Shown here: piece by piece, positions 1,450-46,852 of the stretch
Layout: each line of letters begins with the position of its first letter
Position numbering within the stretch: position 1 is the first letter of the stretch
Source of the DNA: Psychromonas sp. CNPT3
GTDB taxonomy: Bacteria; Pseudomonadota; Gammaproteobacteria; Enterobacterales; Psychromonadaceae
Assembly (NCBI RefSeq): GCF_000153405.2
Contig: NC_020802.1
Span: 1,259,883-1,323,882, forward strand
DNA: 64,000 bases
Direction: 5' to 3'
Notes under the pieces: generated by a model
Database searches by the model: none
Told to the model about the DNA's origin: nothing
What the model saw: only the letters and a program-made list of their open reading frames with translations
Made by a program: the position numbers and the translations under genes

Positions 1450-2754
1450 TTAGGTATCTGATGAAACTAGGCGCTCTTTTTTTAGTCGTTGTCGTAAAAT
1501 CAATTGTGCAAATAACCAACCGGAAGCTGCGATAACAGCCATTAATATAAATAAATTATGAAATCCTTGCGCGCCGGGGGATGCATCTAAAATGCGACCT
1601 GCAACGGGCGCAAAAAAGATATCAGGGGTAAAACCTATCACTGAAATAATACCGACAGCCGTACCGGTCACTCTACCCGCAAGCTTACTTTCGGCTAATA
1701 GGGCGAAATAAACCCCTCGAATAGCAAATACTAATAAAAAAGTTAACGTGATATTAATTTCAAGTAAATAATTGGCAGAGTCATTGTTAAAGAAGGCAAA
1801 GCATAAATAACATAAAGTGAGTAAAACAAACCCCCAAGAAATAACGCGATCTGCACGTAGTTTATCAGCAAGAACACCTGCAAGTAGAGCTGCTATCGGC
1901 CGAATATAAGAAGCATTGGTGACTAATGATGCAGACTCTATATCTGACATCCCTAATACATTGGTTGCGTAAAGACCAAAATAATCGATGCTTTTATAAG
2001 TACAATAGGCCGCCAGTACAATAAATGATTGTAACCAAACGTTAGGATCCTTGAGCGTTTGTTTTACACCTGCAACTATGTCAAATTTACGATCTTTAGT
2101 TATTTCTTGGATTGTATCGGATGTACTGGATATATCACTCGGTATAACGGCTCTAAGTAAAATGGCAGCCAAAAAAGTTAACACTGAGTAAAAAATAATA
2201 ACGGAGGTTAAACCGTCAATTTGATTAGCCCGTGTCATTACCTCTGTATTGATAGGCATTGCTTTGCTGAGTAAAAAGACCGCAACACTTGCGACGCCTG
2301 CTGCAACTAAACCTCGACCGCCATCAAGAACCCCAAAAGCTTTGCCTTGGGATGTTTCACCGCCCCATTGGCGGGTGACTTTTATCATGGGAGCCCAAAA
2401 TAATAAAATAGTGGTGATGCCCCAGTAGCCATACAGTAAGGCAAGTCCATTTATATCGGGGATTTGAACAAAGTACAGCCCACCTAGTGCTGTTGCAAAT
2501 AATGAAAAGCACATTAAATCTCTGCCAGAGAAACGATCTGCAATAGCGCCCCCTGGGAAATAAGCCAGCATGGCCATCACCCCATAGAGTCCAAAAACAT
2601 CGCCTAATTGCGTATTTGTCAGTGAAAAAGCATCGAGCAATGTGGGTCTAAAAAAACGAGCAACATGAAAAGGTAAACTAAAAATAATCTCCCCTGCGAA
2701 TACGATGCAAAATATAATGAGTAATCGATGGGATGGGCTAATAATTTTATTCAT
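1450..2754 (-). CDS. Major facilitator superfamily transporter (YihN-like)
   Basis: A 434-residue hydrophobic protein with about 12 membrane spans and a hydrophilic middle loop around residues 205-235, which is the usual two-times-six MFS layout. The loop between spans 2 and 3 carries GGAIADRFSGRDLM, the MFS signature G-x3-D-R-x-G-R in slightly altered form. The N-terminal FFRPTLLDAFSLTNTQLG is like that of sugar-acid and YihN-type carriers. It stands alone, with no catabolic gene beside it to suggest a substrate. A secondary carrier in the inner membrane is certain enough; the transported molecule is not. Confidence 0.8.
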   Translation of the reverse strand: MNKIISPSHRLLIIFCIVFAGEIIFSLPFHVARFFRPTLLDAFSLTNTQLGDVFGLYGVMAMLAYFPGGAIADRFSGRDLMCFSLFATALGGLYFVQIPDINGLALLYGYWGITTILLFWAPMIKVTRQWGGETSQGKAFGVLDGGRGLVAAGVASVAVFLLSKAMPINTEVMTRANQIDGLTSVIIFYSVLTFLAAILLRAVIPSDISSTSDTIQEITKDRKFDIVAGVKQTLKDPNVWLQSFIVLAAYCTYKSIDYFGLYATNVLGMSDIESASLVTNASYIRPIAALLAGVLADKLRADRVISWGFVLLTLCYLCFAFFNNDSANYLLEINITLTFLLVFAIRGVYFALLAESKLAGRVTGTAVGIISVIGFTPDIFFAPVAGRILDASPGAQGFHNLFILMAVIAASGWLFAQLILRQRLKKERLVSSDT

Positions 2755-3152
2755 GGAATTTCGGTTTAGTGATTAATAATAGTCAGCAATATATAGATAA
2801 AGGGTAGGATCCGCTAGGAAAAACTAAAATAAAGATATATAAGCTAATAAGGGGGGAGCTAGGCGTCTACTCTTAACAAAATGCCGCGTTGTATTCTAAG
2901 TATTGTGGGCTTTAAAATATTTATTACTATATTTTAGCGTTTATGTTTTTGACGAGAAGCCTGCCAATAGAGGGTGACTTTGAACATTTAAAGTGATACG
3001 AGAGCATAAAATGAGCTATGAAAGGATCACTTTATATCTTTTTGAAATTTAGATATATCATCTTATGGATACGATTATGAATCGTTACATTACATAAGCG
3101 TATATCTATTTATATTGTCAACTTTAGATAGGTGTTTCTCCTACTTATTTTA
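2755..3152. other. Intergenic region without recognised gene
   Basis: About 400 bases upstream of the MFS gene. It presumably holds that gene's promoter on the minus strand. It is very AT-rich with stop codons in every frame, and no RNA gene or strong hairpin was recognised. Confidence 0.4.
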
Positions 3153-3326
3153 TTAACGTACTTTTAAATGGGCTAAGATCCCGAGTATTCTTAACCAGTC
3201 AATACCAAAACTGGAATCGTGATTTCCGAATACCTTATCTACCATAGGGACCTTTTCCGGAGTGACGATATCTGAATATGCAGCAGGACCAGTGTTAATG
3301 TTTCTGATATTGCTCAGTTTGTCCAT
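3153..3326 (-). CDS. Small hypothetical protein, orphan
   Basis: A 57-residue frame starts at an ATG (3326) preceded by AAGG at eight bases. The frame can be extended to 3419 but that start has a poorly spaced ribosome site. The peptide is mixed and globular in character, with a tryptophan-containing hydrophobic C-terminus (IDWLRILGILAHLKVR) that could form an amphipathic helix. Its base composition is less AT-rich than the flanks, which supports coding or a remnant of a larger gene. I do not recognise the family. It stands alone between long non-coding flanks, so it may be a gene fragment. Confidence 0.3.
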   Translation of the reverse strand: MDKLSNIRNINTGPAAYSDIVTPEKVPMVDKVFGNHDSSFGIDWLRILGILAHLKVR

Positions 3327-3602
3327 CAGAGTAACCTTCAAGGCTATATTTATTGTCCTGTAAAGAACAACAGCCCCTAAACGGCTACGGCAGGATAACA
3401 CCAATATAAGGACTCCCATAAACCTTTGATGGGATGGTATGTTTAATTAAGATCCTCCTTGTTGCGCGGTTAGGTGACAGAATTTCGTGATGACAAAAAA
3501 TGAAACTCTTAACGGATCATGTATAAAAAAATAAGGTGGGACGTTGATTGTATATGGGTTTTAATTTATTCTATTCGTTTATTTTAATGTAAGGATCGGA
3601 AA

Positions 3603-5054
3603 GTGCGAAATATAATTGTTATTGTTATTTTATGCTTATTATTGTCCATGGGATTAGGGTTCGATGTAGAACTTAATTATAAACATAATTTATCGGTATG
3701 TGCTTTGCTGATTTCATTGTTTTTATTGTCTGGTAATAAAAACATCAAACTGTACTTTATATTGCCTCTTTTAGTTTTACCCGTGATCTATTTCACAACA
3801 GGAATGGTATATGGCCGATTAAATAATGGGATTTTGATGTCGTTGTTTGAAACGAACATAAGAGAATCTTTAGAGTTTATTACCGTGATCCCAATGTTGT
3901 TTATATTCTTAAATATATTATTACTGATAGTATTAATTTTGTATGTCGGTTATGTGGAGTTTAAGTTTAATAAAAGATTAATATATGTCGGCTTAGTGCT
4001 ATTTGTGATATCTCCAGTCGGTGACTTCTATAAAAAAGTATCACCACTTTCAGCCTTAAAGGAGAGTGAAACACTTAAAGAAAGCCTATTAATCAAGCCT
4101 AGTTGGGACATTACCGCTAACCACAGTAAGTATGATGATTATGTATTAATTATAGGTGAAAGCATGCGTAAAGATTACATGTCTGCTTATGGTTACGCAT
4201 TAAATACGACGCCTTTTTTAAAAAAGACGAATGGTTTTTTCCTTGATGGCTATCTTTCTACCTCTCCTAATACGACGACGTCATTACCAAGAACATTGTC
4301 GATAAGTGATTTTAAAAATGTGGAGATCAATAATACTATTATTACATTAGCAAATAAATCTGGATTCGATACGACATGGATTTCGAATCAAGGTTTTGTT
4401 GGTGAATTTGATACTGCCATATCGATGGTTGCGCAACGGAGTAAGAATAAGTTCTTTTTAAAGCTAGGTGGATCTAAGAGTAGGAATATTAATGATGCTG
4501 CTATTTTACCCATATTCGCAAAAGAGTTGAATAAACAAACAACAAAGAAGCGTTTGTTTGTTTTACATTTAATGGGATCCCATCCTAATTTTTGTAAACG
4601 AATAAAAAAAGATATTTATAATTTAGATAACCAGCAATTGTCATGTTATCTGTCTAGTTATACTGCTACAGATAATGTAATTAAAAATGTGATCAATAAG
4701 TTAAAAGAGCGCAAGCGTAGTTATTCGTTAATATATTTCTCTGATCATGGGCTAAATGAGAGCGGCACAGAACAAGACTCCCAGCTACATATTGGTAATA
4801 AACATTTATCTAATTATAGTATTCCATTTATTAGGTTATCGAGTGATGATACAAGAAGAATAACGGTAAAAAATAACGTGAGTGCCTTTCATTTTTTATC
4901 TATTTTTTCAGATTGGATAGGTGTTAAAACAAAGCAAATACCTGATTTTGACATAGCTAAAAAAGAAAAATACGTGTATGTCTTTGACTGGAATAAAATG
5001 ATTGAAGTGAATACATTACTATTAGATCCGACTATTGTTGTCCCAATAAAGTAA
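3603..5054 (+). CDS. Phosphoethanolamine transferase (EptA/CptA-like, sulfatase fold)
   Basis: This 483-residue protein has about five N-terminal membrane spans (to roughly residue 150) and a C-terminal periplasmic alkaline-phosphatase-type catalytic domain. Visible metal and nucleophile motifs are IIGESMRKDYMSAYG (metal-binding Glu), TSPNTTTSLPRTL (nucleophile Thr region), HLMGSHPNF and FSDHGLNE (metal-binding Asp-His). The family moves phosphoethanolamine from phosphatidylethanolamine to lipid A, LPS core or periplasmic glucans. It lacks most of the cysteines that brace EptA, so it is closer to CptA-like members. The GTG start follows GGATCGGA. It is a single-gene unit, so the acceptor cannot be inferred. 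Confidence 0.85.
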   Translation: MRNIIVIVILCLLLSMGLGFDVELNYKHNLSVCALLISLFLLSGNKNIKLYFILPLLVLPVIYFTTGMVYGRLNNGILMSLFETNIRESLEFITVIPMLFIFLNILLLIVLILYVGYVEFKFNKRLIYVGLVLFVISPVGDFYKKVSPLSALKESETLKESLLIKPSWDITANHSKYDDYVLIIGESMRKDYMSAYGYALNTTPFLKKTNGFFLDGYLSTSPNTTTSLPRTLSISDFKNVEINNTIITLANKSGFDTTWISNQGFVGEFDTAISMVAQRSKNKFFLKLGGSKSRNINDAAILPIFAKELNKQTTKKRLFVLHLMGSHPNFCKRIKKDIYNLDNQQLSCYLSSYTATDNVIKNVINKLKERKRSYSLIYFSDHGLNESGTEQDSQLHIGNKHLSNYSIPFIRLSSDDTRRITVKNNVSAFHFLSIFSDWIGVKTKQIPDFDIAKKEKYVYVFDWNKMIEVNTLLLDPTIVVPIK

Positions 5055-5269
5055 TGAGGGCGTGGAGGTGGGCCTGGTCTTTAATCTTGATATGCTCAGT
5101 TAAAGTGAATCAGATTAGCCATTGAATCTATTATGATTAGCCCATTTTGATCAGTGTGCCATTGGCATTTTAGACGAAACGATGTCTGCTGATCATACTC
5201 CCGTTATTTTATAGATCTCTCGTGATTGTATTTCTTAAATATTTTAGATCTGAGGCTATGCATCGAATA

Positions 5270-6136
5270 TTAAGATAAGTTATCCGCAAGAAAATCGACT
5301 AATAATCTTATTTTTGAGCAAAGATGTCGGTTATGTGGGTAGACAGCCCAGATTGATTCATCAGGCTCTTGGCAATGCTCTAATATACTCATTAAAGTGC
5401 CACTATCTAAATGTTTCTGCACGTAACAGTCGGGTAATTGGACAATACCTTGCGATTTTAAGGCTGCATCTGCTAAGCCCCAACCACTGTTATAACGTAA
5501 GTTCCCTTTTACTCTGATCTTCTTTTCAATCCCATTTTCTTTAAAGTGCCAATGATCAAGTACGCCCATTAAGCAGTTATGTTGATTCAGATCTAACAAT
5601 GAGAGGGGAGTACCATATTTCTCTAAATAAAAGGGTGAGGCGCAAACGTAATTACTTCGGACACTCAATTTTTTAGCCATCATTGTAGAATCACTTAATT
5701 TACCAATACGAATGGCTAAATCATAACCATCCCCGACCAGATCAACTTGCTGGTTCCCTAAGTAGGCAAAAACCTCAATATCGGGATAGAGCAACATAAA
5801 ATCATTTACGAGTGGTAATATTTGTTGTTCACCATAAGAGACAGGGGCTGTTAGCTTGATCATTCCTCGTGGTCGATCTTGAAGATTGGAGATAGCGCGT
5901 TTGGCGTCTTCTAAACCATTTAATAAAAGACGACAGTGTTGATAAAAAATATGTCCTTCTTGGGTTAAGGATATTTTCCGAGTGGTACGGTAAAAAAGTT
6001 TTATGTTTAATCTGTTTTCTAATGCACTAACCTGACGGCTTACTTGTGCTGTTGATATTGACATTCTTCTTGCCGCTTTTGTAAAGCTTTCTGTCTCAGA
6101 AACATATACAAATTCATTGATCCCTTCCCATTTCAT
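5270..6136 (-). CDS. LysR family transcriptional regulator
   Basis: A 288-residue LysR-type regulator. The N-terminal helix-turn-helix is clear (ESFTKAARRMSISTAQVSRQ, about residues 15-35) with the usual NRLNIKLFYRTTRKISLTQEG continuation, and a periplasmic-binding-like effector domain follows from about residue 90. It is divergent from the Gfa-like gene across a 222-bp gap, the classical arrangement for a LysR protein and its target. It belongs to the AaeR/DsdC-like subgroup common beside oxidoreductases. The effector is unknown. Confidence 0.9.
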   Translation of the reverse strand: MKWEGINEFVYVSETESFTKAARRMSISTAQVSRQVSALENRLNIKLFYRTTRKISLTQEGHIFYQHCRLLLNGLEDAKRAISNLQDRPRGMIKLTAPVSYGEQQILPLVNDFMLLYPDIEVFAYLGNQQVDLVGDGYDLAIRIGKLSDSTMMAKKLSVRSNYVCASPFYLEKYGTPLSLLDLNQHNCLMGVLDHWHFKENGIEKKIRVKGNLRYNSGWGLADAALKSQGIVQLPDCYVQKHLDSGTLMSILEHCQEPDESIWAVYPHNRHLCSKIRLLVDFLADNLS

Positions 6137-6358
6137 CGCGTTTACCTAGATATATAAATATAAACGTAGATATAGCATATTTTTAAGGAGAAATTAAGGC
6201 CATTTTGGTAATAGTCTTTTACGTAAACTCAGCCTTATCATACGCATCAAATCAATTAAACTCTGCGCATTGTTTACAAGCAATTTTTCTTAGCGTATTG
6301 CAAAGTTACGTCTTAATTTGTAACACACCTATACACCTTAACGTAAGAGTTAGATCAG

Positions 6359-6943
6359 ATGACAAATAAAACAGAAAATAAAGTCGTAGTAAATGTAAAT
6401 ATTCACCCTCAGATCGATAAAGGCATGTCACCTACATTAAATGATTTTAAAGGTGGCGAATTAAAATGTCATTGCAAATCAAATGCAGTTACGGTACAGA
6501 TCATTGGACAAATTGCGCATAATCATGCATGTGGTTGTTCTAAGTGTTGGAAACCGGAAGGCGCTCTTTTCTCGCTGGTAGCCGTCGTTTCAAAAGATAA
6601 CGTAAAGGTAACAAGTAATGTAGATAAGCTGAAAGTGATAGATGAAAGTGCTGCCATTAAACGCTTTGCTTGTACTGATTGTGGTGTACATATGTATGGG
6701 CGTATCGACAATACAGGGCATCCATTTTTTGGGCTAGATTTTATTCATACTGAATTATCGGCTCAAACGGGTTGGGCTGCACCTGAATTCGCTGCATTTG
6801 TATCATCAATTATTGAAACAGGTACAGATCCTAAAGATATGACTGCAATACGTCAGACATTAACATCACAAGGATTACTTCCTTATGATTGTCTTTCACC
6901 TGTATTGATGGATGCAATAGCGACACATATCGCCAGTAATTAA
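6359..6943 (+). CDS. gfa: Glutathione-dependent formaldehyde-activating (Gfa) family protein
   Basis: 194 residues with the Gfa/CENP-V fold. The zinc-binding cysteines are present as [16 protein letters not shown] and [12 protein letters not shown]. The family binds glutathione and is described as S-(hydroxymethyl)glutathione synthase, helping formaldehyde react with glutathione, although that activity has been questioned. Its length matches the dedicated Gfa family (about 190) rather than the short CENP-V-like paralogues. No formaldehyde dehydrogenase gene is adjacent. The LysR gene is divergent and probably controls it. Confidence 0.85.
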
Positions 6944-6961
6944 TAAATAGTCACTGCTGTT

Positions 6962-7017
6962 AAGCCCTCTTTTTGTCTCCTCATTTTAAAATGGGTGAGA
7001 TGAAAGGGGGCTTTTTT
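6962..7017 (+). terminator. Rho-independent terminator after gfa
   Basis: A long stem pairs AAGCCC at 6962 with GGGCTT at 7008-7013 and continues inward with interruptions to the self-complementary CATTTTAAAATG. A run of six T follows. It lies 18 bases after the gfa stop. Confidence 0.75.
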
Positions 7018-7052
7018 GATAAAGGAAAGTATAAAATAGCAAAGAATAATAC

Positions 7053-7090
7053 GCTCTCATCGAGGCAAAAAGAGAGATGAGAGCATTTTT
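7053..7090 (+). terminator. Second hairpin terminator
   Basis: Arms GCTCTCATC (7053-7061) and GATGAGAGC (7076-7084) pair perfectly and are followed by ATTTTT. It forms a tandem stop signal between convergent genes. Confidence 0.6.
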
Positions 7091-7096
7091 AGATGT

Positions 7097-7139
7097 GTCG
7101 AATGTTATCAGGAGAAATAACATTCGACATTTTTTATTT
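7097..7139. terminator. Hairpin at the end of the DauR-like gene
   Basis: A perfect 12-base stem (arms 7097-7108 and 7117-7128, GTCGAATGTTAT) abuts the stop codon of the minus-strand regulator gene and is followed on the plus strand by a T-rich run. It probably works in both directions. Confidence 0.6.
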
Positions 7140-7805
7140 TAAGTTTCGTAAATAGCGATACACACTGTGTATTGATATATCTAAGCTTTTAGCCACGTAG
7201 ATAATGCTATCTTTTAAGTCAAAGATACCAAGTTCATGTAAAGATATGACTATTTCACGATTTTTTTTCTTCATGGGAATGTTGTTATTTTCGATGACTT
7301 TAGTCTGTATACTTTTAATGGAACTCTGCATAAATTCATTGTGATCAAGCGCGAAAGTCTCTGGAGAGTGTTCACCTTGATTCATTGACATCACATCCGG
7401 TAATAAAGCGCGCATTACCGATTGAAAGGGCGCATCAAGATTGCTATTTATACATAATAAGCCGATAGCTTGATTTTGGGGGTTACGAATAACGGTCGTA
7501 ATGGATCGTAACATTTTACCATCGGGGGATTTAGTTAAATAAGAGGCGGATACGTCATGTCCTTCATTTAGTTTTAGTAACGCTAAATTAGTGATTGGCG
7601 AGCCGACTTCTCTGCCGGTAATATTTCCATTTGCGATCTTTATAATGGATGCATTACGTACATCAAGTGTATGTAGTAACACTTCAGTATGTTCTCCAAA
7701 CATTACAGCAATGCCATCAACTATATTTTTCATGGCATTTAATATATCGATATCACTTTGGGTTAGTTGATGCACTCTTTTATGTTCCTCTACACGATAA
7801 ACCAC
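7134..7805 (-). CDS. PAS/HTH regulator of the YheO-DauR family
   Basis: 223 residues with the two-part architecture of YheO-like regulators: an N-terminal PAS-type domain (about residues 15-135, with IVDGIAVMFGEHTEVLLHTL and GLLCINSNLDAPF) and a C-terminal DNA-binding domain (about 165-223, ending SLDISIHSVYRYLRNLK). DauR, a studied member, represses a D-amino acid catabolic operon. Here the gene lies 81 bp downstream of cyuA in the same direction and probably closes the ridA-cyuA transcript. It likely senses an amino acid or cysteine-derived signal for these genes. In Escherichia coli the cyuA/yhaO pair is served by an Lrp-type regulator instead, so regulator replacement is inferred. Confidence 0.82.
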   Translation of the reverse strand: MVYRVEEHKRVHQLTQSDIDILNAMKNIVDGIAVMFGEHTEVLLHTLDVRNASIIKIANGNITGREVGSPITNLALLKLNEGHDVSASYLTKSPDGKMLRSITTVIRNPQNQAIGLLCINSNLDAPFQSVMRALLPDVMSMNQGEHSPETFALDHNEFMQSSIKSIQTKVIENNNIPMKKKNREIVISLHELGIFDLKDSIIYVAKSLDISIHSVYRYLRNLK

Positions 7806-7886
7806 CTACTATAGGGTGGTTTATTATTGACTTCAATAAATAAACAATAAAATAGATAAAGTAGTTATTTTATTTGATTTTATTGG

Positions 7887-9161
7887 TTATTTTCCGGACA
7901 TAATATCAATGATCACGGTATCAGTACTCTGCATTCCATTGCTTATTAATTTTCCTAAATTAACAATAGTTTGTTCTACATTTTGTCCTACGATACCTTG
8001 ATCGTTAGCTTCTGTTGAATTAATGGCTAAAAGAGCGCCGTAAATAGCACTACTTGTTGATGTTTTTACTTTCATCGCACAAGTCGATTTAGCACCATCA
8101 CAAATCATGCCCGTACAATCACCGAGTACATTTTGGATCGCATAGCTACATTGTTCGAAACTACCACCCATTAAGTAGACCATTGCCATGGAGGCTGCCG
8201 AACTAGTGGCGCTATTACCACAAAAAGCAGAGAGGGGTGGGTAATGAGATTTAATATAAATCGCGCCTAAATGGCTGAGTATTAATGCTCTGGCAAGTTT
8301 CTCTTCATCGACATTACAATGCTTCGCCATAATAACGACAGGTAATGTGGCTGCTATCCCTTGGTTGCCACTACCATAATTACTCATAGCGGGTAAGGTC
8401 GCGCCACCCATTCTGGCGTCGGATGCTGCTGTTGTTTCCATTAATATATTATTAATTAAACCTTCTGATATAAATCCATCTTGCATACTTTTTTTAATGA
8501 TCCCGCCGAGGTTTAAGCCATATTGTTTATTTAAACCTTCATTTGCTAATGCAGAATTTAATTTAGCAGCTTCTAAAATGAATTTGATATCAGAAAAAGG
8601 CGCGTGCATTGAAAAGTCATAAATCTTTTCAATATTAATATCGATAGAATCAAATATTGAAGCTTTAGATGAACTGTTATTGGGGGCTGAAAAAATAATG
8701 TCATCATTGAATTTTTTGCTGGTAACGTGGGTATGTGCACCACTAATTTCAACACTGGCAACATTTCCATCTGCTTCGAGCTCAACATAACAATAGATGA
8801 ATTCATTAACGTCAATACGCTCTACGGTTACTTTTTTTGCATCGATTAGGCGCTGAGCTTTGTCGACATCTTGCATTGTTATTTTTTTCAATACTTCTAA
8901 GTCAGCAAGAGGGTCTCCTGCGATTGCGCCAACAGCCGCTGCTATATGTAAACCAATTTTACCTGTCCCAGGAACAAAGACACCCATTGAATTTTTATAT
9001 AGATTATCAGATACCTTAACGGTGATCTTTTCAGGTGTTTTATTTAATATTTTTGTCGCTACTGCGCAAGCATAGGCGACGGATATTGGTTCAGTGCAAC
9101 CGAGTGCAGGCTTCACGACAGAATTTAAAATATTTATATATTGTTGCCATTGAGTTTTCAT
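7887..9161 (-). CDS. cyuA: L-cysteine desulfidase family protein (CyuA/YhaM, UPF0597)
   Basis: 424 residues, matching the UPF0597/YhaM family. The N-terminus has [20 protein letters not shown], and the C-terminal half has [21 protein letters not shown] and [18 protein letters not shown]. The conserved cysteines there are thought to hold an iron-sulfur cluster as in L-serine dehydratase alpha domains. Members convert cysteine (and perhaps serine) to pyruvate, releasing sulfide or water and ammonia. It sits 20 bp after ridA, whose product deals with the reactive enamine made by such enzymes, and is divergent from a YhaO-type transporter. That context firmly supports cysteine or serine breakdown. 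Confidence 0.87.
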
Positions 9162-9181
9162 TTGGATCCCCTCGATCTTAT

Positions 9182-9562
9182 TTATTTACAATAAGCGATA
9201 GCTTCGATTTCTATTTTAACACCTAGTGGTAAATCTTTAACCGCAAAACAACTACGCGCAGGACAATCTGTTTTAAAAAAGTCACTATATACGTTATTAA
9301 AGGCGGCAAAGTCATTAATATCTGAAAGATAACACGTCGTTTTTAAAACGGTTTCTAAGCTTCCTCCACCTGCTTCAACGACCGCTTTTAAGTTCTTTAT
9401 GGATTGTTGAGATTGCTCAGTGATACCACCATTAACGACGCCCCCTTTTTCTTTGCAGATTGGAAGCTGACCCGAGGTGAAAATCAAATTAGAAAATTGA
9501 TTGGCATGAGAGTATGGGCCGATAGCGTCAGGCGCGGTGTTTGCTGTAATAATTTTTTTCAT
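9182..9562 (-). CDS. ridA: RidA family enamine/imine deaminase
   Basis: 126 residues of a typical RidA/TdcF/YjgF protein: [15 protein letters not shown] at the N-terminus, FTSGQLPI, and the C-terminal [21 protein letters not shown], including the arginine that binds the carboxylate of the substrate. Trimers hydrolyse 2-aminoacrylate and related enamines to keto acids, protecting PLP enzymes. It is the first gene of the minus-strand unit with cyuA 20 bp downstream, so it is probably the dedicated partner of that dehydratase/desulfidase rather than the housekeeping copy. Confidence 0.92.
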
Positions 9563-10029
9563 GTTATTTCCTATATAAAGAATCGTAATAACGAAACACT
9601 ACTACTTACAAATAAATTTGCAAGATAGATTCAAATATTTTTATCAATAGTGTGCATGGGTTAATGTAAAGAGGTGAAAATTAGAAATAAAATCCATTTC
9701 ATAAAAGACTTAAATGAAGATATATGATGATTTTATTGTATATATTTAGTTAAACACATATAAAACGAAGTAATTAAAATGATTTTGTTTTATGTATGGT
9801 GTTGTTTTGAATGAAAAATGTCGATTCCAAATCGTATTGGGCATATTAATTTAAAATATTTTCTTTATAAATGACAGTGCGTGGTTGTTATATAAATATA
9901 TTAAAAATATAACGTTATCAGCGCTGCAAAACTTGCAAAAATATTTGAAAGTTGTGTTGTTGTTTTGTGGAATGAATTTATATTCACTTTCAACAACAAT
10001 ATTAAATATTAATTTAACCGGAGATAATT
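9563..10029. promoter_or_regulatory. Divergent control region between ridA-cyuA and yhaO
   Basis: 467 bases separate the two divergent units and must hold both promoters. The region is strongly AT-rich. The one clear structured element is the dyad at 9956-9997, described separately. No coding frame was recognised. Confidence 0.5.
9956..9997. promoter_or_regulatory. Dyad with ArgR-box-like core upstream of yhaO
   Basis: Outer arms GTTGTTG (9956-9962) and CAACAAC (9991-9997) enclose GTG/CAC arms. At 9973-9986 is TGAAT-TTAT-ATTCA, which fits the ARG-box half-site pattern TGAATnnnnATTCA. It ends 33 bases before the yhaO ATG. It may be an operator or a leader hairpin. A single box by itself is weak evidence for ArgR. 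Confidence 0.35.
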
Positions 10030-36079: not shown

Positions 36080-36773
36080 TTATGCATGCTTAGAGGTTAG
36101 CGTATGCAGTCGCTGAGAAAATGCATTTAGGTGCGAGCTTGATCTCTTTTCTTTAACCGCCACTCTTGCACCATGTAATATCAAGGGATCTAAAAACGTT
36201 AAGCCGGTGTCTTTTGCCATTCGTTTAAGGGGAGTCAATAATTCTACAAGCGAGAAGCCATCCTCTTGATAAGAAGAAACAGGGCTGCCAGTACTTTATA
36301 CCAAAGGAACTAAAAAGGTGCTCCGTCTTGCTTGTTGAAATTATCCCTACCAGCGTTGTGAGTTTTGAAGTGAGAACAACTATCTCCTACAACTCATGCC
36401 TTGCTAGTGTTAATTTTTCCTGCGCAATACATGAAAACTTAATTAATTCCTTTGGTATCATGCAAAGTAGTGATTTTCCGTGTAATTTATTCCCTTTTGA
36501 GCCGTAAGCAAAGCCATATTCTAAAACACTGTCTTGCCATTGTTTTAGAAGTGCAGGTGTTGAATACCAGTAAAGCGGAAACAAAAAAACAATCACATCA
36601 TGTGCTAACAATCTTTGCTGCTCTTTTTTGATATTGATTTTAAAATCTGGATATTCTTTATATAAATCAACGCTTGTTATGTTTTTGGTGAGTGTTGCGA
36701 CCTTAAATAATGCATTATTTATAGTTGATGTTTCAATATTCGGGTGTGCAAGGAGCACTAATACCTTTTTCAT
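36080..36773 (-). pseudogene. Flavodoxin-fold NAD(P)H:quinone reductase (KefF-like), split by a miniature element
   Basis: The intact N-terminal part (36773 down to 36459, 105 codons) has VLVLLAHPNIETSTINNALF and FLFPLYWYSTPALLKQWQD, as in KefF/MdaB-type reductases. Reading then enters a 161-bp repeat element (36298-36458) and stops after a foreign tail. Beyond the element the same strand continues, in frame from 36295 to a stop at 36080, with STGSPVSSYQEDGFSLVEL and FLDPLILHGARVA, the expected C-terminal half. The two parts add up to about 176 residues, the usual length of this family. The element therefore inactivated the gene. Restoring the exact joint leaves a one-base discrepancy, so later drift occurred. 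Confidence 0.85.
36298..36458. mobile_element. 161-bp miniature inverted-repeat element, copy 1
   Basis: The ends are perfect inverted repeats (ATACCAAAGG at 36298-36307 and CCTTTGGTAT at 36449-36458), extended imperfectly by AACTAA/TTAATT. A TA may be the target duplication. It has no coding capacity and sits inside a reductase gene. Bases 36296-36404 match the inverse of 38559-38667 without gaps at 97 of 109 positions. Small size, terminal repeats and a second copy fit a non-autonomous element mobilised by a transposase coded elsewhere. Confidence 0.82.
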
Positions 36774-39607: not shown

Positions 39608-39759
39608 AGTTATAACGTTACTACAATGTTAGGTATGGAAGATAGTGTACATTCTAATATTGCGATGATGGGATCTCAGGATCCACTTTATTTTAGAATT
39701 TTTAATATCAAGGGTTATAGATAAGTGGATTTAAAGGCTGGAGAATTAAAGAAGCTCTC

Positions 39760-39797
39760 TTTAGAAGAGAGCGCAAAGGAACACGCTCTCTTCTAAA
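39760..39797. terminator. Strong hairpin between convergent genes, with alternative fold
   Basis: A perfect 14-base inverted repeat has arms 39760-39773 and 39784-39797 (GAAGAGAGCG against CGCTCTCTTC). The left arm can instead pair with GCTCTC at 39754-39759, so two mutually exclusive hairpins are possible. There is no clean T-run. It lies between the epimerase gene and the minus-strand nucleotidyltransferase gene and is likely to end transcription in both directions. Confidence 0.6.
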
Positions 39798-39825: not shown

Positions 39826-40578
39826 TTAGTGACATTTTTTAAATATATTTTCAGCTTTTGCAAAATCATCTAAAGTATCAATTTCAATCCATTTTAATCC
39901 AGTAATATCTAAGATATTGAAGATAACATTTTTGGCAATAAGTCGTTCATATGCTGCTTCGTAATACTCTTGATGATGTTTTTCATCGCTCATCATCTCT
40001 TTTAATTCTGAAAACAAGCGTTTTGCAGTACTATTACTTATTTTTTCAATACCAATAGACTCGCCGATAGCATCTTTAGGGGCGACATCTTTACTGGCTT
40101 TAAGAACCTGATTTTTATCATTGATGATAATTTTTATTTCTTCTGCATCTAGATTTATCTGGGTATCAACACATAAGCAATTTTCATATTCAGATGCGAT
40201 GAGTTGTTTAAGGATCTCAATATCAAAAACCACATCCGCATCAAATTTTATAAAAGAAGAATCCTTAACGAGCTCTTCTGCCAGCATTAAAGAGTAACCT
40301 GTATTCGTTTTGGTATAAAATTCATTGGTAATAAAATGCGCATTTAAACTCGGGAAATTCTTATTTATAAAATCTTTAATATCATTTTCTAAATAGCCAA
40401 GAATAAATACAATCTCAGTAATACCACATTTGACTATATTAGAAACCATCATTTCTAATATAGTGTATTCACCTATTTTTAATAAACTTTTAGGGCAGTT
40501 ATTCGTTAAGGGTCTTATTCTTGAGCCAATACCGGCAGCTAAAATAATGGCTTTCAGGTTTTTATTATTATCTTTCAT
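39826..40578 (-). CDS. LicC/PntC-like CTP-dependent nucleotidyltransferase
   Basis: 250 residues from the ATG at 40578; an upstream TTG adds three codons. The nucleotidyltransferase motif is AIILAAGIGSRIRPLT with PKSLLKIGEYTI, and metal binding is by FDADVVFD. The later stretches GESIGIEKIS and WIEIDTLDDFAKAE are typical of choline-phosphate and 2-aminoethylphosphonate cytidylyltransferases. It would activate a small phospho- or phosphono-head group as its CDP derivative. It is the third gene of an operon with a PhnW-like aminotransferase and a CDP-alcohol phosphatidyltransferase, which fits head-group activation before transfer to lipid or polymer. Confidence 0.78.
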   Translation of the reverse strand: MKDNNKNLKAIILAAGIGSRIRPLTNNCPKSLLKIGEYTILEMMVSNIVKCGITEIVFILGYLENDIKDFINKNFPSLNAHFITNEFYTKTNTGYSLMLAEELVKDSSFIKFDADVVFDIEILKQLIASEYENCLCVDTQINLDAEEIKIIINDKNQVLKASKDVAPKDAIGESIGIEKISNSTAKRLFSELKEMMSDEKHHQEYYEAAYERLIAKNVIFNILDITGLKWIEIDTLDDFAKAENIFKKCH

Positions 40579-40647
40579 AGTTATCAATAAATCTTTTGTT
40601 AAATATACTTGTTGATAGGAAATAAGACGGCATTTTAGAATGGCGTC

Positions 40648-41418
40648 TTATTTGGTTATTTGGTTATTTATATTGTTTTCTAACTCTTGGCCTCGTTGTA
40701 GTCCTCGATATAAGCCATAAAATATCTGACTGAGGGCAAAGATCCAAAGCATGGGGGTAAGTAGATTAAAGATCAAAGAAAACGATAACATAAAGATAAA
40801 AACGCCTTCATTAAAAGATAGGATTTTTTTCTGCTCTTTAATAAACCAACATAAATTATCGAGGAAACTAAATTCAATACCAGCAACATTATTTTGTTGC
40901 ACTTTATTTTTAGACAGAGAGTCTAAATAGTGGCAATCCTCCTCCATGTGTGTGTAGATCGTGATGTATTTTACATAGCCTCGTAAAGAGTAAAATGCGA
41001 TCCCTAATAAAGCTAAACAAATAGGAAGAACACTTTCTGATTGTGCATAGGCAGCGAATCCCACTGAGCCGAACCACATAGTGACCTGAATTTGATCTGT
41101 TAATTTATCGTAATAGGCTCCCGATGCAGAAGTCGTTTTTCGATAGCGAGCCATTTGTCCGTCCATACAATCAAAAACATGGCTTAGGGTAATTAAAATA
41201 GCGGCAATAATAAAATTTTGCATGCCTCCAACAAGGATAAAGACACATGAAAGGATAGCGGTTAAAAATGAAATTAAAGTGATTCGATTAGGTGTTAAAA
41301 ATTTCATGTCGACCACAATATAATTGAGTAATATTGCTAATGGAGACGTTACAAAAGAGGACCACCACTCATCATCTTTAGTTTTGGTTGCCCATAATGT
41401 TTTTAATTTAGTGTTCAT
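40648..41418 (-). CDS. CDP-alcohol phosphatidyltransferase family protein
   Basis: 256 residues, about six to eight membrane spans. The family motif D-G-x2-A-R-x8-G-x3-D-x3-D is exact (MDGQMARYRKTTSASGAYYD, about residues 88-107, followed by KLTD). These enzymes move a phospho-alcohol head group between CDP and an alcohol acceptor in the membrane. It overlaps the aminotransferase gene by four bases and precedes the nucleotidyltransferase by 69. It is therefore expected to use the CDP-activated head group made by that enzyme. The acceptor (diacylglycerol or another lipid) is inferred. Confidence 0.85.
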   Translation of the reverse strand: MNTKLKTLWATKTKDDEWWSSFVTSPLAILLNYIVVDMKFLTPNRITLISFLTAILSCVFILVGGMQNFIIAAILITLSHVFDCMDGQMARYRKTTSASGAYYDKLTDQIQVTMWFGSVGFAAYAQSESVLPICLALLGIAFYSLRGYVKYITIYTHMEEDCHYLDSLSKNKVQQNNVAGIEFSFLDNLCWFIKEQKKILSFNEGVFIFMLSFSLIFNLLTPMLWIFALSQIFYGLYRGLQRGQELENNINNQITK

Positions 41419-42593
41419 AAAGCAATCTCTCTTTTTTCATCATTTATAATAATCAAATTATCTTTATATTTGTTTTTGTGGGTTAATAAGTGATCCACTT
41501 CAATATTTAATAGATCATGCAATATGAGTTTTAAACAATTTAAAAAATATTGTATGTCATGAAGCGATAGCTCTCCAATATTGCCGACTTGAAAAACTTT
41601 ACCTAAGAAACAGCCTTTCCCTTCATAAATAATAATAGATTTATCGCGTAGTTTTTCCCGCAGAATGCTTACATCTATATTAGACGGGACACAAACCGTT
41701 GTTAACATTGAGCACATTTGTTGGGGCTCAATTAAAAATTTCAGCCCTAACTTAGTAATGCCTCGTCGTAAAATATTCGCTTTATTTCTGATATCTTTAT
41801 AATAATTGTTGATACCTCGATCAATAAGGTTGGATAAGGCTTGATCTAATGCATAAAAAAGATGCACCGCTGGTGTATTGGGTGTTTGTGACCAATTACA
41901 CATAAAACGGTAAAAAGTATATAAGTTAAGGTATGTGGTTTTAGCGGGTAAATCTTTTAGCTTTTCAAACTCTGTTGTTTTACCGATGACAAATGATAAG
42001 CCTGAATATGACGCGATAGCTTTAGAGCTTGAGCTGGAAATAAAGGCAATATTGCATTTATCCATCTCAATAATTTCTACACCGGCACTGCTGACGCAAT
42101 CGACAAAAAAAGTGATGCCGTATTTTTTAGTGAGCTTACCAATATCAGATAATGAATTTAACATCCCTGAACTGGTCTCATGGTGAACCATTGCAATAAT
42201 ATCAATCTTATTGTTAGATAAATAATCTTCTATGATGTTTAAATCAAGGGATTTCCCCCAGGGGAATGACAATATATGAGTGTTTTTATTGTGAATTTTA
42301 GATATGTTATTCAATCGTTCGCCAAATTCACCATTAGATAATATAAGGATATGTTGATCACTCACAATGGATGACAATATAGATTCATTGGCAGCCGTTC
42401 CTGATCCGGTAATAATCACGGCGCGATAATTATTATGATCTACATCGAAAATATGTAACAGTTTAGTCTCAATACTATTGAGTAAAGTTTCAAACTCCAC
42501 TTCACGATGACAAATATCTTTTTTAATGATAGCCATTTTCACATTACTGGCTAAATTGACTGGGCCTGGTGTAAATAATAAATCTTTTTCCAT
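41415..42593 (-). CDS. 2-aminoethylphosphonate aminotransferase-like PLP enzyme
   Basis: 392 residues of the class V aminotransferase fold. LFTPGPVNLASNVKMAI and KDICHREVEFETLL resemble PhnW and alanine-glyoxylate transaminases, VDCVSSAGVEIIEMD holds the PLP-contacting Asp, and the Schiff-base lysine is in SSSSKAIASYSGLSF. PhnW exchanges amino groups between 2-aminoethylphosphonate and phosphonoacetaldehyde. Coupled with a CTP nucleotidyltransferase and a CDP-alcohol transferase, the synthetic direction (making aminoethylphosphonate) is the likelier role. No phosphoenolpyruvate mutase or decarboxylase gene lies in this window, so the carbon-phosphorus step would have to be encoded elsewhere. 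Confidence 0.78.
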   Translation of the reverse strand: MEKDLLFTPGPVNLASNVKMAIIKKDICHREVEFETLLNSIETKLLHIFDVDHNNYRAVIITGSGTAANESILSSIVSDQHILILSNGEFGERLNNISKIHNKNTHILSFPWGKSLDLNIIEDYLSNNKIDIIAMVHHETSSGMLNSLSDIGKLTKKYGITFFVDCVSSAGVEIIEMDKCNIAFISSSSSKAIASYSGLSFVIGKTTEFEKLKDLPAKTTYLNLYTFYRFMCNWSQTPNTPAVHLFYALDQALSNLIDRGINNYYKDIRNKANILRRGITKLGLKFLIEPQQMCSMLTTVCVPSNIDVSILREKLRDKSIIIYEGKGCFLGKVFQVGNIGELSLHDIQYFLNCLKLILHDLLNIEVDHLLTHKNKYKDNLIIINDEKREIAL

Positions 42594-43305: not shown

Positions 43306-44205
43306 ATGCAGAATATAAAAGATTTTGATTTACACTTACTTGATTTATTTGTCACCATTGTTGAGTTAGGCGGGTTTTCAGCTGCGCAATCAAAACTAAA
43401 TATGCACCAGTCAACGATCAGTACCAAAATGACGACGCTAGAAGTGCGTTTAGGGATGACCTTATGTCATCGAGGGCGTCGGGGTTTTTATTTGACCAAT
43501 GATGGTGAGAACGTTTATAAACTCTGCCTAAAAATATTTAATGAAATTGCCTCGTTTGAAGAAGCATTGAATAATATTAGAAACATATCCAACGGGCATA
43601 TTATATTAACCTTAACCGATAATATTGCGACAAATCCTAATTGTAAAATCAAAGATGCCATCAAGTCTTTTTCTAATCTTTACCCAAAAATAACCATGAA
43701 AACAGATGTATTTGATTCGTTTCAAATTGAAATGATGCTATTAGACGAGCGTATAGAGCTTGGCGTGACATCTTCAGAAATAAGAAAAAAAGGTTTAACG
43801 TATCTCTCTTTATTTGATGAAACACAATCACTTTACTGCGCCGCCATGCATCCTGTATTAGACGTTAAAGGTAAATTAAGCGCAAAAAAGATGGCTGCTT
43901 TTAATTTAATTGATCGTGGTGTTTCGCATAAAATAACGCCATTAACTAATCTAAATAAAGGCGAAAATGTTGCCACTAGTGTCAATATGGAAGCGACCGT
44001 GCATTTGATTTTATCGGGGAATTTTATTGGCTATCTGCCCGATCATTTTGCAGACATTTGGGTATCAAAAGGCGAAATGATAAAAATTAATGCGCCGGAT
44101 TTAGATTATACCGCAGCCTTTCATCTCACACTTTTAACCTCTAAAGAATTATCATTAGCCGCACGAAAACTAAAAGATCTTATTATTAAGGCGCATACAA
44201 TATAA
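43306..44205 (+). CDS. LysR family transcriptional regulator
   Basis: 299 residues. The N-terminal helix-turn-helix is GGFSAAQSKLNMHQSTISTK (about residues 21-40), followed by RLGMTLCHRGRRGFYLTNDG and an effector-binding domain. It precedes the racemase-like and YfcC-like genes by 121 bp in the same direction and probably regulates them, perhaps sensing their substrate amino acid. Confidence 0.9.
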   Translation: MQNIKDFDLHLLDLFVTIVELGGFSAAQSKLNMHQSTISTKMTTLEVRLGMTLCHRGRRGFYLTNDGENVYKLCLKIFNEIASFEEALNNIRNISNGHIILTLTDNIATNPNCKIKDAIKSFSNLYPKITMKTDVFDSFQIEMMLLDERIELGVTSSEIRKKGLTYLSLFDETQSLYCAAMHPVLDVKGKLSAKKMAAFNLIDRGVSHKITPLTNLNKGENVATSVNMEATVHLILSGNFIGYLPDHFADIWVSKGEMIKINAPDLDYTAAFHLTLLTSKELSLAARKLKDLIIKAHTI

Positions 44206-44326
44206 AGGCTTGATTGCTATTAGATCATTACATCGAATTTGAACAATGTAAGCATATAAAACGAGATATTTTACATTTACTAAAAAAAACTTAATGTGAA
44301 TAAAATATCAGATAATGGAGTTTTAT

Positions 44327-45391
44327 ATGCATAAGTCACCTTGCATTAATATAGATTTGGGTATTATTAAATCCAATACACAATCGTTAATTAAAGAATG
44401 TAAAAAACATGGCGTGATCCCCTGTGGTATCGCCAAGCTTGCCTGCGCAGAGCCAAAAGTAGAGCAAGCTTTAATTGATGCTGGCATTCATCTTATTGCC
44501 GATCCCCGCATTGTTAACCTTAAAAAAATTAAACACTTAAACTGCATAAAAATGCTGCTAAGAATGCCTTCTTTGAGCGAAATTGAGGATGTGATCACAT
44601 ACTCTGACATCTCCTTAAATACGGAAATAGTCACGCTAAAAGCGTTATCTGTTGCCGCTATCAAGCAACATAAAATTCATAAAATCATTATTATGCATGA
44701 TCTTGGAGACCTTCGAGAGGGCGCATTTTATGAGCAAGAAACATTAACCTTAGCAGAGCAGTGTATGCAGCTTAAAGGCCTTGAACTTGTTGGTCTTGGC
44801 AGTAATTTGGCGTGCTATGGCGGTGTTGAACCTACGTTTGAAAATCAAACTCAATTGTTACAGATTGCTAAAAAAATTGAAAATAAAAATGCCATTAAAT
44901 TAACTTACATTTCGGGTGCAAGTTCAGCCGCTTTGCCTTTAATGCTCAGTGGTAAATTACCCAAAGGTATTAACCAATTAAGGTTAGGTGCTTCCTTATT
45001 AATGGGCATCGGACTAAATGATGATGTTATCCCCAATACCCAACAAGATGCTTTTACGCTGAGCGCTGAAATCATTGAAATTAAAATAAAACCATCTGTT
45101 CCGCTCAATTCAACAGCAAAAGATGCCTTTGGTCATAAACCTGTTTTTGTTGATAGGGGCAACCGAAAACGCGCTATTTGCGCACTGGGGAAACAAGATA
45201 TCGATTTCTCTCAATTATTTTTAAAAGATAAAAATATTATGCTGATTGGCGGAAGTAGCGACCACTTGATTTTAGATATTACCGATGTAGAGCCCGCCCT
45301 ACAGATAGGAGACAGTGTTGATTTTACACTTTCCTATAGCGGTATTTTACAGTGTATGACATCAGAATATGTGCATAAGAATTTTTGTTAA
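44327..45391 (+). CDS. Alanine/ornithine racemase family PLP enzyme
   Basis: 354 residues from the ATG at 44327 (TGGAG upstream). The protein has the alanine-racemase N-terminal TIM-barrel, but its lysine is in GIAKLACAEPKVEQ rather than the standard AVVKANAYGHG, as in the ornithine racemase-like family. Further motifs are IIIMHDLGDLREG, SGASSAALPL and LRLGASLLMG, the last a PLP-phosphate site. Length is close to the family (about 350). It lies between a LysR gene and a YfcC-type transporter, so it probably racemises an imported diamino acid such as ornithine. Substrate is inference. Confidence 0.82.
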   Translation: MHKSPCINIDLGIIKSNTQSLIKECKKHGVIPCGIAKLACAEPKVEQALIDAGIHLIADPRIVNLKKIKHLNCIKMLLRMPSLSEIEDVITYSDISLNTEIVTLKALSVAAIKQHKIHKIIIMHDLGDLREGAFYEQETLTLAEQCMQLKGLELVGLGSNLACYGGVEPTFENQTQLLQIAKKIENKNAIKLTYISGASSAALPLMLSGKLPKGINQLRLGASLLMGIGLNDDVIPNTQQDAFTLSAEIIEIKIKPSVPLNSTAKDAFGHKPVFVDRGNRKRAICALGKQDIDFSQLFLKDKNIMLIGGSSDHLILDITDVEPALQIGDSVDFTLSYSGILQCMTSEYVHKNFC

Positions 45392-45436
45392 AGAATAAAT
45401 TTAAAAAAAACAATCAACTTTAGATGAGGTTAGACT

Positions 45437-46852
45437 ATGTTCAAAATAAAAAAGTTTCCTAATACGTTTACGATATTATTTGTTTTAATTGGTTTTTTTG
45501 CGCTACTCACTTATATATTGCCTGCGGGGGAATATGTACGCGAGATGAACGAAAGTTTAGGCCGTGAAGTGCCAATACCTAATTCATTTACAATCATTGA
45601 ATCTTCACCGCAAGGTTTTTTTCAGACATTAATGGCGCCTATATCCGGCTTTTATGATCCCTCATCTGGGATGATTGGCGCGGTGGATGTGAGCTTGTTT
45701 ATATTAATGGTAGGTGGGTTTTTAGGTATTATCACTAAAACGGGTGCAATTGATACCGGCCTTGCACGGATAATGGACCGATTAAAAGGCAAAGAGCTTT
45801 ATATGATCCCGTTATTGATGTTTCTCTTTGCGATTGGAGGCACCACTTATGGGATGGCAGAAGAATCGTTAGCTTTTTATGGATTGATGATCCCGCTATT
45901 TATGGCTGCCAGGTTTGATCCCTTAGTGGCGGTATCGGTGATTTTTGTTGGCACGGGTGTCGGCACCTTGGGTTCAACTATTAATCCTTTTGGTACGGTG
46001 ATAGCCTCAAGTGCTGCCAGTATCGATTTTTTAAGTGGTATTAGTTTACGTCTTTGTATTCTTGTCATCGCACTTATTGTCAGCTGTGCGTACATCATGC
46101 ATTACGCGCGTAAAATTCAAAAAGATCCCCGCGCATCACTGCTTTATCACCTTAAAGAATCAAACGAAAAACACTTCTTTGCGAATAAAGCAAGCAATCC
46201 CAACGTGCTATTAACAACCTCGCAAAAAGGTGTGCTTATTTTATTTGTAACCACCTTTGCCATTATGATTTACGGTGTTTCTATCTTGGGCTGGTGGATG
46301 GGTGAAATGGCCACTTTATTTATTTTCATGGGGATTTTATGTGGAATAGTGGGGCGTTTAAAAGAAGATGAGTTAATTAATTCCTTTATCGCCGGCGCCG
46401 CTGATTTAATTGGTGTTGCATTAATTGTTGGTGTGGCACGTGGCATTGTTGTGGTGATGGAAGCCGGGCATATTACCGATACAATTTTGCATTATGCAGA
46501 AGCGTTTGTGCAAGGTAAAAGCTCCATCTTATTTATTAATATGATTTACCTAATAGAGATGATGTTATCTTTTATTGTTCCTTCAACGTCGGGTCTTGCT
46601 GTAATGAGTATGCCTGTTTTAGCGCCATTGGCTGATTTTGCAGGCACAGGCAGAGAGCTTGTTGTTACCGCATTTATGAGTGGTATTGGTACGGTTTTAT
46701 TTGTCACGCCGACCTATGGTGTGTTAATGGGTGGCCTTGCTATCGCGCGTATTCCTTATATCACTTGGCTCAAATTTATTGCGCCATTAGTTGGATTTTT
46801 CATCGTGATGAACTGCATTATTTTATCATTAGGGGTAACGGTATTTGCTTAA
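45437..46852 (+). CDS. YfcC family basic amino acid / dicarboxylate transporter
   Basis: 471 residues with about 12 membrane spans. The family signature is clear: FPNTFTILFVLIGFFALLTY with ILPAGEYVRE at the N-terminus, LFILMVGGFLGIITKTGAID, and GVGTLGSTINPFGTVIASSAA. The YfcC/ArcD-like group includes arginine/ornithine exchangers and short-chain carriers. It follows the racemase-like gene by 45 bp and is likely cotranscribed with it, supporting an ornithine or related role. A terminator follows the stop. Confidence 0.88.
   Translation: MFKIKKFPNTFTILFVLIGFFALLTYILPAGEYVREMNESLGREVPIPNSFTIIESSPQGFFQTLMAPISGFYDPSSGMIGAVDVSLFILMVGGFLGIITKTGAIDTGLARIMDRLKGKELYMIPLLMFLFAIGGTTYGMAEESLAFYGLMIPLFMAARFDPLVAVSVIFVGTGVGTLGSTINPFGTVIASSAASIDFLSGISLRLCILVIALIVSCAYIMHYARKIQKDPRASLLYHLKESNEKHFFANKASNPNVLLTTSQKGVLILFVTTFAIMIYGVSILGWWMGEMATLFIFMGILCGIVGRLKEDELINSFIAGAADLIGVALIVGVARGIVVVMEAGHITDTILHYAEAFVQGKSSILFINMIYLIEMMLSFIVPSTSGLAVMSMPVLAPLADFAGTGRELVVTAFMSGIGTVLFVTPTYGVLMGGLAIARIPYITWLKFIAPLVGFFIVMNCIILSLGVTVFA

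Follow-up and report, generated by a model that had tools for sequence, protein, structure and literature searches.

The question raised by three adjoining genes of Psychromonas sp. CNPT3 is what kind of molecule they build. The genes lie on the minus strand of a 64,000-nucleotide stretch of contig NC_020802.1 (positions 1,259,883 to 1,323,882; hereafter the window, to whose own numbering its coordinates refer) and encode an aminotransferase-like enzyme (AT), a CDP-alcohol phosphotransferase (CD) and a nucleotidyltransferase (NT). An earlier interpretation made from the letters alone, here called the sequence-only reading, took them as one pathway in which a small molecule is aminated, activated with CTP and handed on by CDP-alcohol transfer, and considered a phosphonolipid or a phosphonate-decorated polymer to be a reasonable product. 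The pathway logic is supported by the conservation of the unit, its gene order and its motifs; a phosphonate made de novo is not. The trio is a variant of CDP-activated head-group synthesis, and a new one. A search of open-licence PMC papers gave, among the matches listed, none on such a cassette or its product. We lean slightly toward a self-contained, horizontally spread cassette for a Kennedy-like route to an amino-alcohol head group, probably borne on a lipid.

A Conserved Three-Gene Unit

The three minus-strand genes drawn by the sequence-only reading are all open frames. The first gene of the operon, AT (41415..42593, minus strand), encodes a class-V aminotransferase-like pyridoxal phosphate (PLP) enzyme of 392 residues that matches Aminotran_5 with 81.8 bits (Pfam cut-off 21.5). 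It is followed by CD (40648..41418, minus strand), encoding a membrane protein of 256 residues with a match to CDP-OH_P_transf (PF01066; 59 bits, cut-off 22), and by NT (39826..40587, minus strand), a LicC/PntC-like nucleotidyltransferase that matches NTP_transferase (PF00483; 46.3 bits, cut-off 21.2) and has a likely ATG start at 40578, giving 250 residues. The frame coordinates bear out the 4-bp overlap described for AT and CD; the 69 bp described between CD and NT hold if NT starts at this ATG, and become 60 bp if it starts at the upstream TTG. A terminator-like hairpin stands 3′ of NT at the operon end (39754..39772, minus strand), in a region where the hairpin search found 5 terminator-like sites and shuffled sequences gave an expectation of 1.9.

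The trio recurs far beyond this host. An alignment of CD was scanned against one genome per species for 84,980 species, returning 131 pattern matches and 106 relatives; the scan required the peptide T[KS]DDEWW or DCMDGQM, so that divergent CD relatives were missed. Locus counts rest on 80 of the 106 relatives plus one Sulfitobacter plasmid, which carries AT, CD and NT in matching order with 53-59% identity to those of the window. Of these 81 loci, 75 resemble the window's cassette (type A), and the other 6 differ from it in AT and NT (type B). The one-strand order AT-CD-NT is kept in 71 of the 75 type-A loci. Among the four exceptions, the contig ends after CD in two (L022 and L037) and starts at CD in a third (L054), and the fourth (L033, 510-11873) has AT and CD with no NT within 9.4 kb; on another contig, the L033 genome has a phosphoenolpyruvate (PEP) mutase over the cut-off. 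The 4-bp overlap of AT with CD recurs in 55 of 74 type-A loci. Moreover, the pairwise distances of AT, CD and NT correlate across the 64 loci that passed a length filter (r of 0.90, 0.84, and 0.84, with 0 of 999 permutations as high), which shows shared inheritance. By their order, overlap and co-inheritance, the three genes are more than chance neighbors.

The 80 genome loci are distributed over Pseudomonadota (58), Bacteroidota (5), Actinomycetota (3), Verrucomicrobiota (3), Chlamydiota (2), Planctomycetota (2), and Nitrospinota, Chloroflexota, and Hydrogenedentota (1 each); four are without a phylum assignment, and the titles of two of these name Aerophobetes and KSB1. All loci from Verrucomicrobiota, Planctomycetota and Hydrogenedentota are type B, so type A spans six named phyla in addition to the Aerophobetes and KSB1 titles. 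Many of these genomes are metagenome-assembled genomes (MAGs), for which single phylum assignments may be wrong. The carriers are apparently mostly marine, judged from several record titles that name marine genera or marine sampling series. In the gene trees of AT, CD and NT the phyla are partly intermixed, and from these sequence comparisons the cassette has probably spread horizontally across bacterial phyla. A viral carrier was looked for without success: viral contigs scanned with CD gave no relative. Among 24 genomes of one genus, 21 of them at least 90% complete, a CD match at E<=1e-10 occurs only in the host genome, which suggests that the host acquired the cassette by transfer. The GC content of the trio is 0.324, compared with 0.363 for the window, and the nearest relatives of the host AT and NT come from Shewanella benthica, a deep-sea species.

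An Aminotransferase Set Apart From AEP Transaminases

The sequence-only reading described the aminotransferase as resembling enzymes of 2-aminoethylphosphonate (AEP). The resemblance stands at the level of family, with a TIGR03301 match of 293 bits, and falls short of that model's cut-off of 360.8, which the host's own PhnW passes with 532.5 bits. Lys191 of AT, at the position of the PLP lysine (42021..42023, minus strand), is conserved in all 82 aligned sequences of the AT family. At residue 335 (41589..41591, minus strand), the same alignment shows Gln where AEP transaminases have Arg, so that their motif FRIGNIG reads FQVGNIG. Gln occupies this position in 74 of the 82 sequences, all type A, and Arg in 7, which are five type-B enzymes and two AEP transaminases (AEPTs) of PEP-mutase operons; one type-A sequence stops before the position, and Gln is thus found in 74 of the 74 type-A sequences reaching it. 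All 14 reference AEPTs and PhnWs have the Arg, as do the five solved homologues listed. It corresponds to Arg340 of the Salmonella enzyme, a residue with a role in binding the substrate's acid group.

In the AT tree, the cassette enzymes form a long-stemmed clade of their own (31 rows, support of 96 in the Shimodaira-Hasegawa-like approximate likelihood ratio test, SH-aLRT), apart from AEPTs, PhnWs and type-B enzymes. The comparison rows were 8 AEPTs of the AepZ type, 6 PhnWs and 5 type-B enzymes, the T. denticola AEPT not being included; the 8 AEPTs were labeled biosynthetic, and seven of them have a PEP mutase or decarboxylase in the stretch fetched (L095 does not). All trees were quick ones with SH-aLRT values, no bootstrap and long-branch warnings. 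AT is distant from AEP transaminases and may be an offshoot of them with a new function. According to PMC7694997, methionine is made in vitro by a relative of the aminotransferase family that is fused to a Mycoplasma methionyl-tRNA synthetase, so the family name alone does not fix the substrate.

The Search for a Phosphonate Source

No PEP mutase lies near the trio, as the sequence-only reading had seen, and the whole-genome search that it proposed extends this to the complete host genome, a single contig of 3,052,410 bases rated 99.98% complete: PF13714, a model of PEP mutase and the superfamily around it, gave no match there and a match in 11 of 14 control genomes. Around the 81 cassettes, neither PEP mutase nor phosphonopyruvate decarboxylase was found in the stretches fetched, which reached up to 10 kb or more on each side and often less. 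Weak PEP-mutase matches at cassette loci start at query residue 271 or later and fall on NT genes; they therefore reflect the nucleotidyltransferase part of the query.

Association was also looked for at the level of whole genomes, and the search for PEP mutase covered 50 of the 80 genome loci. A TIGR02320 match over the cut-off occurs in 3 of these 50 cassette genomes (2 of 45 type A, 1 of 5 type B), near the background of 18 of 398 genomes in a set of Pseudomonadota only. Two further cassette genomes have matches below the cut-off, of 285 and 231 bits, the second covering residues 99-279 only. Five background genomes have a non-PhnW AEPT-like match at E<=1e-40 (G186, G321, G327, G394, G396) and all five have a PEP mutase over the cut-off, so the search detects the link where it is present. 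In the genomes inspected that have both, cassette and PEP mutase are well separated. In Lucifugimonas, PEP mutase (0.97 Mb) and cassette (2.05-2.07 Mb) lie about 1.1 Mb apart. In G186, PEP mutase, decarboxylase, AEPT and NT occupy a contig other than that of a unit of AT, NT and CDP-alcohol enzyme, and a further PEP mutase is found on a third.

The sequence-only reading allowed either a carbon-phosphorus source elsewhere or a different head group, and named a phosphonolipid or phosphonate-decorated polymer as a reasonable product. The family resemblance of AT (TIGR03301, AEPT) speaks for such a product made de novo, with its source elsewhere in the genome, as does the frequency of nucleotidyltransferases in phosphonate gene clusters reported in PMC6697681. 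The complete host genome without a PF13714 match, the lack of PEP mutase enrichment in cassette genomes and the Arg lost from AT all speak against it. De novo phosphonate synthesis by cassettes of this kind appears unlikely, and as the explanation of the window's trio it is highly improbable; for this genome it is close to refuted, and could be rescued only by a carbon-phosphorus enzyme unrelated to PEP mutase.

Predicted Nucleotide Activation and Transfer

The nucleotide motif of NT, GIGSRIRPLTNNCPK (40489..40533, minus strand), contains Arg20 and Lys30. Both are invariant in 32 aligned NTs, as is Lys163, and the three align with Arg15, Lys25 and Lys153 of PntC from Treponema denticola, for which PMC6697681 gives catalytic roles. 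The acidic pair Glu232 and Asp234 is kept as well. As a single sequence, NT has the PntC half of PntC-AEPT as its best solved match, ahead of LicC (75.2 vs. 61.8 bits); as a family profile, its best solved match is LicC, ahead of PntC (91.8 vs. 78.7 bits). In a tree that included neither the characterised LicC nor the T. denticola PntC, 23 NTs from cassettes cluster together (SH-aLRT 97), and two NTs of PEP-mutase operons group, on long branches, with a Rhizobium NT encoded beside LicD, apart from those of the cassettes. The sequence-only reading had named a firm grouping with choline-phosphate or ethanolamine-phosphate enzymes, together with a genome lacking PEP mutase, as evidence against a phosphonate. 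The host genome does lack a PF13714 match, but no such grouping was found, the single sequence pointing to PntC, the profile to LicC and the tree to a separate clade. Asp113 and Glu207 were considered as a discriminator between AEP and phosphocholine and rejected, given that the NTs of PEP-mutase operons share this Asp and Glu.

CD carries the CDP-alcohol motif exactly as the sequence-only reading stated: DxxDGxxAR-x8-G-x3-D-x3-D is complete, as DCMDGQMAR...G...D...D, in residues 83-108 (41095..41172, minus strand). Across 34 aligned CDs, D83, D86, G87, G100, D104 and D108 are invariant, and A90 and R91 are kept in at least 90%. The AlphaFold model of CD, like that of AT a single chain, is all-helical (predicted local distance difference test, pLDDT, of 87.4) and has AF2299 as its best fold match. 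Profile comparison likewise ranks AF2299 first, followed by a choline phosphotransferase, the inositol-phosphate enzyme IPCT-DIPPS and two more choline/ethanolamine phosphotransferases, with phosphatidylserine and phosphatidylinositol-phosphate synthases last. Diacylglycerol is the likely acceptor.

The ranking by fold is different, and it makes a soluble acceptor possible: AF2299, IPCT-DIPPS and phosphatidylinositol-phosphate synthases come before choline phosphotransferase. IPCT-DIPPS makes a soluble phosphodiester. CD might then join the activated compound to a soluble polyol phosphate, yielding a phosphodiester osmolyte, or to a precursor of a surface polymer. The NCBIfam model for the bifunctional IPCT-DIPPS does match NT and CD, under its cut-off. 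However, the sequence profile of CD puts choline phosphotransferase over the DIPP enzyme, and no glycan gene was recognised among the annotated recurring neighbor clusters, which are part of all clusters; we regard a non-lipid product of this kind as quite improbable.

Variants and Accessory Genes

Type B comprises L041, L051, L052, L060, L062, and L082. Its order is AT-NT-CD in five loci, and L062 begins at NT, where the contig ends. Identity to the window's proteins is 26-30% for AT, 25-27% for NT and 52-60% for CD, and the type-B CD sits inside the type-A tree, within a 99-supported group of 6 type-B and 6 type-A rows. The unit in G186 has an A-type AT (66%) and NT (60%) alongside a CDP-alcohol enzyme of quite another kind, which comes closest to PgsA and scores under the cut-off of that model. 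From these two cases, the AT-NT pair and CD are each exchangeable.

Downstream of CD, 10 of the 81 loci have a kinase-like gene: 8 of the 75 type-A loci, where two copies are cut short by contig ends, and 2 of the 6 type-B loci. The genes fall into two families. A uridine-kinase-type kinase, with PF00485 found on the L028 protein, occurs in L022, L023, L025, L028, and L037 (partial in L022 and L037). A protein that we read as P-loop-like, with no Pfam or NCBIfam match, occurs in L008, L010, L031, and the type-B loci L052 and L060; a family common to types A and B is in keeping with a shared product. Counted by genome, the uridine-kinase type matches in 6 of 51 (one match weak) and the P-loop-like type in 7 (two or three of the matches weak). 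The host is in neither set, and a kinase as an obligatory fourth gene was rejected on these counts.

Other genes stand between CD and NT or downstream of CD in places. A protein of 356-381 residues (cluster 23) stands beside it in L027, L035, and L043; the L043 copy has no Pfam or NCBIfam match, and the protein looks ATP-grasp-like by eye. L013 has a HAD phosphatase, and a second CDP-alcohol enzyme is found in L039, L062, and L082. Members of a 2-oxoglutarate (2OG)-Fe(II) oxygenase family are encoded near the cassette in L007, L033, L036, and L038, the Pfam match being on L038. A protein that we read as a similar 2OG-Fe(II) oxygenase was seen in L115.

Related Systems

Like the cassette, PntC-AEPT of T. 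denticola (6PD1/6PD2) and the pnt clusters combine a nucleotidyltransferase with a class-V aminotransferase, and the T. denticola fusion makes CMP-AEP (PMC6697681). The cassette differs in its separate genes, in the Gln that replaces Arg in AT and in having no PEP mutase or phosphonopyruvate decarboxylase found around it. A cluster of Mycetohabitans endofungorum (L006), which we read as phosphonolipid-type, contains a CDP-alcohol enzyme, a 2OG oxygenase, an NT, aepX, aepY and an AEPT. It shares with the cassette the CDP-alcohol enzyme, the LicC-like NT and the AEPT-family enzyme, and departs from it in the presence of aepX and aepY and in an AT and NT only 31 and 28% identical to the window's.

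The Kennedy pathway is the route through CDP-choline and CDP-ethanolamine, and bacteria have routes that combine LicC with a CDP-alcohol phosphotransferase. In these routes, as in the one proposed for the cassette, CTP activation of an amino-alcohol phosphate precedes the action of a CDP-alcohol phosphotransferase; unlike them, the cassette has a dedicated PLP enzyme in the unit and, in its minority of loci, the kinase-like gene after CD. Two plasmid clusters also place a LicC-like NT, a PLP enzyme and a CDP-alcohol enzyme next to each other, and no PEP mutase is present in the stretches shown. In Erwinia rhapontici (L124), an NT domain is fused to the PLP enzyme, beside a CDP-alcohol enzyme and HAD proteins; in Mesorhizobium mediterraneum (L127), a LicC-like NT, a CDP-alcohol enzyme and a GHMP kinase are accompanied by a PLP gene on the opposite strand. 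Both PLP enzymes are class I/II, in contrast to the class V of the cassette, and we read the two clusters as a similar idea realized with another PLP enzyme. Separately, Streptomyces plasmids (L005, L126) have a recurring row of a DUF5941 protein, a LicC-like NT, an iron alcohol dehydrogenase and a CDP-alcohol enzyme; the DUF5941 protein of L005 carries a CDP-alcohol domain.

Such arrangements bear on the possibility that the cassette is a second route to ethanolamine lipids, with AT acting as a lyase, decarboxylase or aminotransferase to give phosphoethanolamine or aminopropanol phosphate, NT making CDP-ethanolamine and CD making phosphatidylethanolamine (PE). Pairs of NT and PLP enzyme with LicD-like or CDP-alcohol enzymes are alike in shape elsewhere, including one in Prevotella with genes named by eye. 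The CD profile resembles choline/ethanolamine phosphotransferases, and the loss of the Arg could fit a changed type of reaction. However, hosts of this kind make PE via PssA and Psd, and a redundant pathway offers no clear reason for wide transfer. We consider this route improbable.

Proposed Pathway and Its Weak Points

In the Kennedy-like route toward which we lean, AT would make a small amine-bearing phosphate ester from a common metabolite, or alternatively an amino alcohol that is then phosphorylated by a kinase. NT would join this amine product, X, with CTP to give CDP-X, and the membrane-bound CD would move phospho-X to an acceptor, most likely diacylglycerol, resulting in a phospholipid with an amine head group. 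We infer the CTP donor, the class of substrate and the acceptor. For X itself, serinol phosphate (2-amino-1,3-propanediol phosphate), formed from dihydroxyacetone phosphate, is a guess with a small chance of being right. It is chosen because a cassette found in several phyla, mostly without further genes, should use a universal metabolite, and because a Gln replacing the Arg suits a neutral CH2OH group. Alternatively, X could be ethanolamine phosphate or aminopropanol phosphate.

Several observations weigh against this route. By sequence, by profile and by fold, AT matches the AEPT half of PntC-AEPT best (6pd2 for the fold, from a model with a pLDDT of 81.7), and the single-sequence preference of NT for PntC and the fold ranking of CD point away from it as well. 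Neither cassette kinase family was found in the host genome by a search confined to these two families, and most cassettes have no kinase-like gene at their locus. The type-B AT keeps the FRIGNIG Arg in 5 of 5 sequences, and 4 of the 5 type-B genomes searched have a phosphonate enzyme over its cut-off (PhnX in three, PEP mutase in one); type B may be linked to phosphonates. Most cassette genomes are MAGs that may be incomplete, in which the absence of PEP mutase from any single genome is weak evidence. Lastly, the host appears, from its genes, to be able to import and degrade AEP. An AEP catabolism cluster at L110 (C1:2312000-2329000), 2711-9674, has PhnW beside PhnX (318.9 bits), and on the opposite strand are ABC-transporter and GntR-type regulator frames, AEP-type by eye; a search of the host for PhnD-type phosphonate uptake found none, these transporter frames being present instead.

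These points suit a salvage route, in which AEP or phosphonoacetaldehyde from sea water would be converted by NT to CMP-AEP and by CD to a phosphonolipid, with no need of PEP mutase. The PntC-AEPT likeness of AT and NT and the host's PhnW and PhnX, over their cut-offs next to such transporter frames, speak for salvage, and PhnX is also present in three of five type-B genomes. Nevertheless, only 4 of 51 genomes have a PhnX over the cut-off, and the host is the sole type-A genome among them. Activation of imported AEP needs no aminotransferase, the AT has exchanged the Arg for Gln, and some cassettes carry kinase-like genes. Salvage of AEP is, on this evidence, an unlikely function, and the Kennedy-like route to an amino-alcohol head group is the one that we retain.

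Genes Beside the Cassette

Next to the cassette, on the plus strand (43306-46852), the window encodes a LysR regulator, an ornithine-racemase-like protein (NF040742, 434 bits, cut-off 480) and a transporter of the YfcC/DcuC family. On the minus strand, at 36387-36773, is a quinone-oxidoreductase-like frame of 128 residues, named by eye, which looks shortened.

Implications for Membrane Head Groups

In the wider form of this proposal, a mobile three-gene cassette, built around a new-function offshoot of the AEP transaminases, makes a previously undescribed polar head group in bacteria of several phyla, apparently mostly marine; we hold this to be plausible, if somewhat short of probable. If true, several phyla, with many carriers that are apparently marine, contain bacteria making an amine-bearing lipid or phosphodiester from genes that could now be taken for phosphonate genes. 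PntC- or AEPT-like genes would then call for caution as the sole evidence of phosphonate production. The compact set of three genes would allow the new head group to be made, identified and deleted. Regulation of membrane lipids by pressure was first demonstrated in strain CNPT3. Given this host and the Shewanella benthica relatives of its AT and NT, the head group could be important to membranes in cold, deep water, and the link to a classic deep-sea strain would make the role of head groups under pressure testable.

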